Assembly (NCBI GenBank): GCA_944319735.1 | Contig: CALUEU010000001.1 | Location: forward strand, 186,001-250,000 | Length of the DNA stretch: 64,000 bases | Source of the DNA: an uncultured Methanomassiliicoccus sp. | GTDB lineage: Archaea > Thermoplasmatota > Thermoplasmata > Methanomassiliicoccales > Methanomassiliicoccaceae | Reading direction: 5' to 3' | Shown here: in pieces, positions 7,988 to 47,083 of the stretch | Position numbering within the stretch: position 1 is the stretch's first letter | Layout of the letters: each line of letters starts with the position of its first letter | Program-made: the position numbers and the translations under genes | Notes under the pieces: model-generated | Database searches by the model: none | The model's input: only the letters and a program-made list of their open reading frames with translations | Told to the model about the DNA's origin: nothing

Positions 7988-8646
7988 TGGTTTCAAGAAC
8001 TGTTTTTACACAAGAAATGAAAACCTTAGATCAAGAAATGATTCAGATGGGTAATTTAGCTGAAAAAATGATAAAAACTGGAACCAAGGCATTTGTGGAA
8101 GGCGATGCTAAATATCTTGAAGAAATGAAAAAACTAGACCGTGAGCTGCACTTCATGGATCAAACAATAGAAAAACACTGTCTTGATATCATAGCCCTTC
8201 ATCAACCACTGGCAGTAGACCTCAGAACAGTATCATCAATATTGAAAATAATAACTGATCTTAACAGGATAGGGAGATACGGAAGAGACTTAGCTGAAAC
8301 TGGTGATCCTGATAAATCAAAACATGTCCCTCAGGCCTTAATTACTATGATCAGTGAAGTTCTGTCACTTGTATCAGATGCCATTAGGAGCTTTGTAACC
8401 CGAGACATTGAGTTGGCTAAAAGCATATCTAACCGCGATGATACTATTGATGAACTGTGGAAACAGACTTTAAAAGAATCATTAGATTATATAAAAGAAA
8501 ATCAAAAATGTAAAACTAGTGTTTCTGTCGGAGCCGAAGCCATATTAGCATCAAGGTATCTGGAACGCATTGCGGATCATGCGTGCAATATAGGAGACAG
8601 AGTTGTGTTCATGATCTCTGGACAAAGGCCAGATCTGATTGTTTAA
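7987..8646 (+). CDS. phoU: Phosphate transport regulator PhoU
   Basis: A 219-residue two-bundle PhoU protein without a DNA-binding head. It contains the DLNRIGRYGRDLAE and ERIADHACNIGDRVVFMISG metal-site helices typical of the family. PhoU proteins act at the cytoplasmic face of the Pst transporter to damp phosphate uptake. As last gene of pstSCAB-phoU (ATG inside the pstB stop) it probably contacts PstB directly, while the AbrB-fused paralogue across the promoter could handle transcription; this division of labour is inference. Confidence 0.9.
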   Translation: MVSRTVFTQEMKTLDQEMIQMGNLAEKMIKTGTKAFVEGDAKYLEEMKKLDRELHFMDQTIEKHCLDIIALHQPLAVDLRTVSSILKIITDLNRIGRYGRDLAETGDPDKSKHVPQALITMISEVLSLVSDAIRSFVTRDIELAKSISNRDDTIDELWKQTLKESLDYIKENQKCKTSVSVGAEAILASRYLERIADHACNIGDRVVFMISGQRPDLIV

Positions 8647-45665: not shown

Positions 45666-46878
45666 TTAAATCTTATTTTTGTATAGCAGATATGCTAATA
45701 TTGCTACAATAATGCAGATTATTGCAATAGCTGTGTAAAACCAATTTGGCTGATTGCTTCCACCATTATTTTTAGTATCGATGACTGGATCTGCTAATTT
45801 TTCCCATTCTGCAACTAATTCAAGATCGCTCATTACTGCAGAAGTAAAATCATACTCTGTGCCCTCCAGGCTCCAGTGAGTAAATTTATACCCATCTTTT
45901 GTAGGTGCAGCCGGAACTTCAACGAGTTTTCCAGACTCAACTTTAGCTGATGAATATTGATTTTCATCCACTAAAAATAACACGGTATAATCTGGTATTT
46001 TTTCCCATTCTGCAACAAAATGTATTGATTTTGAAGGCATCCTGAAGCTATCTCCCTGTTGATATACAATACCACTATATGACCAGCCAGCAAAGGTAAA
46101 ACCATCCTTTACCAGATTTCCTGGTCCAGGAAGTTTAAATATATCTCCCGACTCAAAATATGAAGTTCTTGGAGCTGTTCCGCTAGTGCTATCATTATCA
46201 TCATAACGAACTTGGTAATCAATAGAATATGTGTACCATTTGGCGTATAAAGTAGTATCTTCTATTATGGGTTCATTTATAAAGAATGGATTTTTAAATT
46301 CTTTATCCAGATACCACCCCATAAAGGTGCTATTAGATCTTACTGGATCGTCTGGTAAGGTTAAAACATAATTATAATTAAGCTGAACGGGGGATATTGT
46401 TGTGCCACCGAAGGTCTCAAACGTGACTGTTAAAACATATGGATTCCAAATTGCATAAAAGTCTATGTGTTTTGAGTATGCACTGTATATATCACCAGTG
46501 GAATATATGTAAGGGCCGCCATTTGGATCATCACACCATCCAAGAAAATTAAAGTCACTAGATAATAACCCAAGTGCAGTTGGCGATTCAAGACGTACAA
46601 ACGTTAAATCATACGATTTATCTATGGTGTTGTTCGCTCCATTATTGGAATGATATGTAATAGTGAGCGGTTTTTCACCAGTTTCATCTGATAAAATAGG
46701 AATATTTTCTAAAATGGTGTGTGAAGGTGAGTTTAATTCATCATATGAATTATTTTGTAAATCTTCAATTTTGATACCCCCCCCCCCCGGAGAGGTTTGG
46801 GTCAGGGCATACAGTAGTTAAACAAAGAGCTAGCAACAAAATTGCCGAGATAGATATCAATGCATATTTCTTGAGGAT
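45666..46878 (-). pseudogene. InlB-repeat surface protein interrupted at a 12-G tract (phase-variable candidate)
   Basis: An uninterrupted frame from the G tract to 45666 encodes about 370 residues: at least three Listeria-Bacteroides (InlB B-type) repeats, each ending in a FYAIW/LYAKW/FVAEW/LVAEW-type strand, then a linker and a C-terminal membrane anchor (WFYTAIAIICIIVAILAYLL, KNKI). Upstream of the tract a different frame encodes a signal-like peptide (LKKYALISISAILLLALCL) leading to PDPNLS-GGGG. With 12 Gs the two are out of frame and translation ends at TGA soon after; 11 or 14 Gs would join them into about 403 residues. GGAG precedes an ATC codon (46878) where the signal peptide should start; the nearest standard start is TTG 46860. 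So it is either switched off, decayed, or misassembled. Confidence 0.75.
46777..46788 (-). repeat. Homopolymer of 12 G (minus strand)
   Basis: Twelve consecutive C on the plus strand in otherwise AT-rich DNA, located just after a signal-peptide coding segment and exactly where the reading frame shifts. Such tracts are classic sites of slipped-strand mispairing. Confidence 0.9.
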
Positions 46879-47083
46879 GTTATCATACTCCGTGTATGTA
46901 GATTACTACAAAGTATCTGCGACAAAAATAGTACTTTGAGTATTTATAAATGAAGCCCTATGGTATACCATATAGATGCCTATCTAGTACATGAATGGAA
47001 TCGCTATAAACTCAAATCAATCTTGGATTACCGCACTTCGAACAAAAAATGATGATATAAAGGACGATACACACTCATAACAT
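46879..47083. promoter_or_regulatory. Divergent upstream region of the surface protein gene and the cca leader
   Basis: On the minus strand tttataaata (near 46942-46951) could drive the surface protein. On the plus strand gatataaagg (47054-47063) is a TATA box whose start site falls at about 47084, the first base of the GC-rich hairpin. No gene is seen here. Confidence 0.45.

Follow-up and report, generated by a model that had tools for sequence, protein, structure and literature searches.

Poly-G slippage switches are well known in bacteria. In Campylobacter and Helicobacter, a small genome carries many tracts of about 8 to 15 Gs in genes for surface structures, each gene is ON in one of three registers, and MutS repair is reduced or absent. 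The homopolymeric adhesin switches of Neisseria and Helicobacter pylori, SabA (PMC2715451) among them, carry the tract in 5′ coding sequence or close to the promoter. One survey (99 prokaryotic genomes, of which 18 were archaeal) was concerned mainly with short poly-A/T tracts and among archaea named only a Methanoregula, for overrepresented poly-A/T tracts of 8 to 9 bases (PMC2831843), and a 2025 review of phase variation names the archaeal distribution as open and leaves it to the future (PMC11868660). Our search of the open-access literature, with subscription papers and preprints outside its scope, returned no report of archaeal phase variation by homopolymer tracts. For the Methanomassiliicoccales, the repeat repertoire has been counted, with “Candidatus Methanomassiliicoccus intestinalis” described as an outlier that has 26 Listeria-Bacteroides repeat gene clusters; the relevant passages of that paper mention neither tracts nor switching (PMC7883539).

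The locus described here lies in a window of 64,000 nucleotides, the whole stretch of DNA analyzed, from the genome of an uncultured Methanomassiliicoccus sp. (1,774,839 bases in 21 contigs). Our best reading of the sequence is that this archaeon has a set of surface genes forming a poly-G contingency repertoire; the window gene would be an OFF, perhaps damaged, member of it. Like the poly-G/C loci of Campylobacter and Helicobacter, the set comprises multiple G tracts at surface genes with one ON register each, and MutS is absent here too; unlike them, it belongs to an archaeon, has its tracts mainly at the junction between a signal peptide and a giant repeat protein, and is a predicted switching system. 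With the Neisseria and H. pylori switches it shares adhesin-like genes and this position of the tract, but the proteins are unrelated, those described here having InlB/PF09479 repeats and a C-terminal membrane anchor. With 110 PF09479 matches, the genome resembles the repeat-rich “Ca. Methanomassiliicoccus intestinalis” as portrayed in the passages cited above (PMC7883539); that the two are the same organism is a guess. The features of the window gene (L039) are as follows.

46943 to 46950, minus strand: TTTATAAA, a possible TATA element with the leader downstream of it, from sequence reading
46888 to 46891, minus strand: GGAG, a possible Shine-Dalgarno motif 9 nt 5′ of the ATC codon, from sequence reading
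46789 to 46878, minus strand: secretion-leader frame ILKKYALISISAILLLALCLTTVCPDPNLS, 30 codons; its first codon is ATC, where paralogues have ATG
46777 to 46788, minus strand: homopolymer of 12 Gs, the presumed switch, in the OFF register; ON would need 11 or 14
46765 to 46776, minus strand: OFF-frame stretch behind the 12 Gs, translated as Y-Q-N-stop
45666 to 46775, minus strand: ON-frame ectodomain, 369 codons plus the stop codon at 45666 to 45668
46452 to 46664, minus strand: PF09479 (Listeria-Bacteroides, or InlB B-repeat), a weak match of 22.7 bits in the profile search
46239 to 46430, minus strand: PF09479 repeat, 59.4 bits in the profile search
46074 to 46217, minus strand: partial PF09479 repeat, 27.2 bits in the profile search
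45810 to 45989, minus strand: PF09479 repeat, 46.6 bits in the profile search
45669 to 45746, minus strand: hydrophobic C-terminal anchor NWFYTAIAIICIIVAILAYLLYKNKI, read off the translation

The tract, 12 Cs on the plus strand and 12 Gs on the minus strand, lies inside a reading frame. The leader frame enters it as STYTEYDNILKKYALISISAILLLALCLTTVCPDPNLS-GGGG and in the assembled sequence runs into a stop codon three codons beyond it (YQN*). The OFF state, one of two possibilities raised in the earlier note, is the register of the gene as assembled; the other, a mixed population, is conjecture. The note's description of the architecture, a leader frame followed by 12 Gs and then by an InlB-type ectodomain with an anchor in another frame, was likewise borne out: all 369 ectodomain codons are open, and the profile search placed the ectodomain above the curated PF09479 cut-off (134 bits against 27). 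One register in three yields the full-length protein, while the others lead to an early stop. Five overlapping 8-G matches were found in the window, against an expectation of 0.41, and all five belong to this one tract. The neighbors, named from sequence reading, we take to be a CCA-adding-enzyme-like open reading frame (ORF) on one side and, on the other, a Pcc1-like ORF and then an archaeosine tRNA-guanine transglycosylase. Because housekeeping genes thus flank it on both sides, the tract belongs to a single stand-alone gene. The transglycosylase is at best 75% identical to those of named relatives, the nearest of which place the genome in the Methanomassiliicoccaceae; its genus is represented by one species.

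The window tract is very probably a slipped-strand contingency switch and part of a genome-wide poly-G repertoire of this Methanomassiliicoccaceae archaeon. With 11 or 14 Gs, the leader, the glycine-coding tract, and the InlB-type ectodomain would share one frame, and the product would be secreted and anchored; with 12, translation would end at the stop just described. Replication slippage would add or remove one G in some cells, aided by the absence of MutS and NucS, and a clone would thus come to carry differing sets of surface proteins. We infer that tract lengths vary within the population and alter its surface.

Genome-wide, 17 G-runs of at least 7 were found, 15 of which are 11 to 15 long. 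In the approximately 325 kb of the genome in which shorter runs were counted, runs of length 3, 4, 5, and 6 numbered 2,651, 466, 108, and 10, respectively, and none occurred from 7 until 11. Under geometric extension with an extension probability of 0.18, about 0.02 runs of at least 11 would be expected in the whole genome, against the 15 observed. Large same-strand ORFs start near 13 of these 15 tracts, compared with a fraction of 0.196 at random positions in the same DNA; when a nearby hydrophobic segment is also demanded, the figures are 12 of 15 and 0.049. The same placement test on the opposite strand was passed by a single tract of the 15. Nine tracts lie directly behind the signal peptides of large surface proteins, three just upstream of giant surface genes, two in one acyltransferase gene, and one before an ABC ATPase gene. 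The G run encodes glycine in every register and is a harmless linker. As assembled, four of the signal-peptide tracts are ON and five OFF, although single calls may be off by one base because assemblies miscount homopolymers. The loci are the following.

Window gene (L039): 12 Gs behind the signal peptide, OFF
L043: 13 Gs behind the signal peptide, OFF
L044, L047, and L050: 11 Gs behind the signal peptide in each, OFF
L048: 11 Gs behind the signal peptide, ON, more than 4,700 codons
L049, L051, and L052: 12 Gs behind the signal peptide in each, ON
L041, L042, and L045: giant ORFs with signal peptides of their own, preceded by a tract at a distance of about 80 to 380 nt
L046: 15 Gs before an ABC ATPase gene
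L040, 7131 to 7773: acyltransferase-3 gene with two tracts of 11 Gs, neither of them in frame

The acyltransferase gene matches a single profile, Acyl_transf_3, in two pieces, positions 9 to 226 before and 242 to 323 after the second tract; since neither tract is in frame, switching the gene ON would take two independent events. The ABC gene of L046 apparently contains further frame breaks. L049, ON across its 12-G tract, has a frame break about 1 kb downstream (near 8572), with no obvious repeat at that point.

Paralogues within this one genome differ in tract length. Upstream of the tract, L043, L049, and L052 are identical at 115 to 118 of 120 positions and carry 13, 12, and 12 Gs, respectively; the flanks of L043 and L052 match at 117 of 120 positions, with 13 versus 12 Gs. 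Between L042 and L048, all 66 of 66 nt upstream agree, with 12 versus 11 Gs, while only 10 of 30 positions agree downstream, and L043 and L052 likewise diverge beyond the tract. From such sequence comparison, the length differences are attributable to slippage between recent copies. Two contigs have 77 bases in common at their ends, 66 nt plus 11 Gs, and then diverge (L042, 1 to 78; L048, 14360 to 14437), as if the assembly had broken at a common leader-plus-tract.

A rival explanation would be that homopolymers were miscounted and that in-frame genes only look broken. Homopolymers are indeed hard to sequence, a resequencing study of model archaea takes poly-G differences as probable errors (PMC11834397), and the two contig ends with the same 66 nt and 11 Gs speak for trouble in assembly at such sites. 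A one-base error, however, cannot make 15 tracts of 11 to 15 where runs of 7 to 10 are almost absent, a miscount cannot put tracts at the starts of surface genes, and tracts of equal length occur in different registers; we therefore consider an artefact very unlikely. RNA polymerase can slip on long homopolymers, and the frame might be set at the RNA level, by polymerase or ribosome slippage on a DNA tract of fixed length that yields a fraction of full-length product. Such a mechanism would tolerate the observed mix of ON and OFF DNA lengths. It leaves the tracts upstream of start codons (L041, L042, and L045) unexplained, and near-identical paralogues differ in the length of the tract in DNA, which indicates slippage of DNA over that of RNA, so that we regard this account as unlikely. 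A role for the G runs as recombination or gene-conversion junctions, at which 5′ cassettes are swapped among surface genes with slippage as a by-product, would fit the near-identical upstream and divergent downstream flanks of L042/L048 and L043/L052, and a second family has about 290 to 330 nt of common 5′ sequence and no poly-G. But that family is homogenized as well, and conversion therefore needs no tract; moreover, the acyltransferase, ABC, and window tracts have no such cassette, and junctions of this kind appear a highly improbable account of the set. A contingency switch operating by slippage of the DNA tract remains our preferred reading of the repertoire.

For the window gene itself, a further alternative carries more weight. 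Its leader frame contains no ATG and no GTG, and the only canonical start candidates are TTG codons within the hydrophobic core. In a gap-free alignment to the closest paralogous leaders, MKNKAKLILASAVFVAALMLLVPLAQTDMS and MNKKSKLILASAVFIAALMLLVPLSQANVP (30 codons each), the window leader likewise spans 30 codons, a length common to L043, L044, L047, L049, and L052, and the codon at the position of the paralogues' ATG is ATC (46878 to 46876). Position 46878, the end point given in the earlier note, is the first base of this ATC codon and not of a start codon. The body of the gene is intact, and the start position holds ATG in every paralogue that can be aligned; the ATC at the aligned start means that in the window copy either the start is very unusual or there is a second lesion. 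The note's expectation of one protein regained with 11 or 14 Gs accordingly stands as far as the joining of the frames is concerned, and is weakened by this second possible lesion. Similarly, for the proposal of phase variation by poly-G slippage, the design of the tract is strongly supported by the 14 other tracts of the genome, found at gene 5′ ends and mostly those of surface genes, by ON and OFF registers, and by length differences between paralogues, whereas restoration by Gs alone is called into question by the ATC. There is a real, if lesser, chance that the window copy alone is a dying pseudogene, its start codon lost and its tract a relic, in a genome whose poly-G system is real. This reading is limited to the window copy and is compatible with a contingency switch as the explanation of the whole set. 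The ATC in place of ATG, a leader frame devoid of ATG and GTG, and a tract that is out of frame favor it, and yet 369 codons are still open, the anchor is intact, the tract is 12 perfect Gs, and the leader has kept exactly the 30 codons of its paralogues. TTG starts are apparently used elsewhere, in the giant genes of L042 and L045 and in rps12 in the window, but none is well placed in the window gene. A TTG start coupled to an overlapping mini-ORF, MITSSRNMH, is possible, but GGAG lies one base from the ATG of this mini-ORF, and the leader, if started at TTG, would have no positive charges. The window gene is thus the least certain member of the set and may be locked off or decaying.

Five surface genes of the same genome that carry no poly-G, at the end of L218 and in L219, L220, L221, and L222 (contigs C2 at its end, C5, C13, C15, and C16), are exactly alike over about 150 to 185 nt upstream and 130 to 145 nt of 5′ coding sequence (MKTEKRLTMALSVLVALMMLAVPLASSSNLFVDGGQTNSNGDAP) and then diverge, a pattern suggestive of gene conversion or of an exchange of 5′ cassettes. 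In L225 (contig C20), a tandem pentamer, (TTAGA)n, is located at the 3′ contig end.

Profile searches, with positive controls, detected neither MutS nor NucS in this genome, and MutS_V exceeded the cut-off in 0 of 147 genomes of the order. Permissive mismatch repair often accompanies poly-G phase-variable loci, which do not depend on it. Tracts of at least 11 are few or absent in most genomes of the order, and the lack of MutS is therefore permissive and not sufficient. Loss of MutS alone was rejected as the cause of the tracts, since its absence is order-wide and most genomes are nonetheless tract-poor.

Relatives were compared using one genome per species. In a sample of about 310 genomes from the phylum outside the order, the highest count of tracts of at least 11 was 6, compared with 15 in the present genome and 76 in G056, which belongs to the other large family of the order. 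In G056, tracts of 11 to 12 Gs lie within the N-termini of a paralogous family of leucine-rich-repeat (LRR) surface proteins, before a membrane segment. In G034, assembled as a single contig, tracts occur behind signal-like segments, and in G066 (L262) a tract separates a signal peptide from PF09479 and LRR repeats. Genus g18 (G073, G075, G098, and G100) has giant surface ORFs with 11-G tracts about 40 to 60 nt ahead of their starts, and 12 of 20 tracts pass the placement test against 0.09 to 0.15 expected per genome. G057 (GC content about 59%) has many tracts, some of them apparently intergenic. Within the family of the present genome, G015, G018, and G022 have tracts mostly 10 to 11 long in chance-like positions; a system common to all relatives was rejected, as the tracts of these three lie at surface genes no more often than chance predicts. 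The family yielded only weak repeat matches to the ectodomain and no orthologue, and leader-plus-tract patterns had no match in viral contigs. Tract positions differ between genera, from which we infer more than one origin; because some genomes are fragmented, contamination of single contigs is possible among the relatives. The tract-rich genera are presumably gut-dwelling, judging from named members of their family.

Phase-variable restriction-modification genes define phasevarions, and none were found in the present genome. In G056 (L200, L202, and L206), tracts of 10 to 12 Gs interrupt a D12 adenine methyltransferase gene, lie where an HsdS gene ends, and occur in a type III restriction helicase-like gene. 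These could represent an archaeal phasevarion or contaminating contigs. Taking the order as a whole, in which MutS does not exceed the cut-off, we lean slightly toward the view that surface poly-G phase variation arose more than once in host-associated Methanomassiliicoccales (here behind the signal peptide, in G056 before a membrane segment, and in g18 ahead of the start codon) and that one genus has it in DNA methyltransferase and specificity genes as well, which would be archaeal phasevarions.

If the contingency reading is correct, a classic bacterial bet-hedging mechanism extends to archaea, in gut methanogens that depend on cell contact, and the clonal surface diversity of archaea becomes testable by ordinary deep sequencing. 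It would also help to explain how gut archaea cope with viruses, with partners, or with the immunity of the host, and a surface gene that is split in an archaeal assembly might be a switch rather than a pseudogene. The longest tract seen, a run of 23 Gs, occurs in a repeat-rich surface-like ORF of G073 (L245, position 1502).
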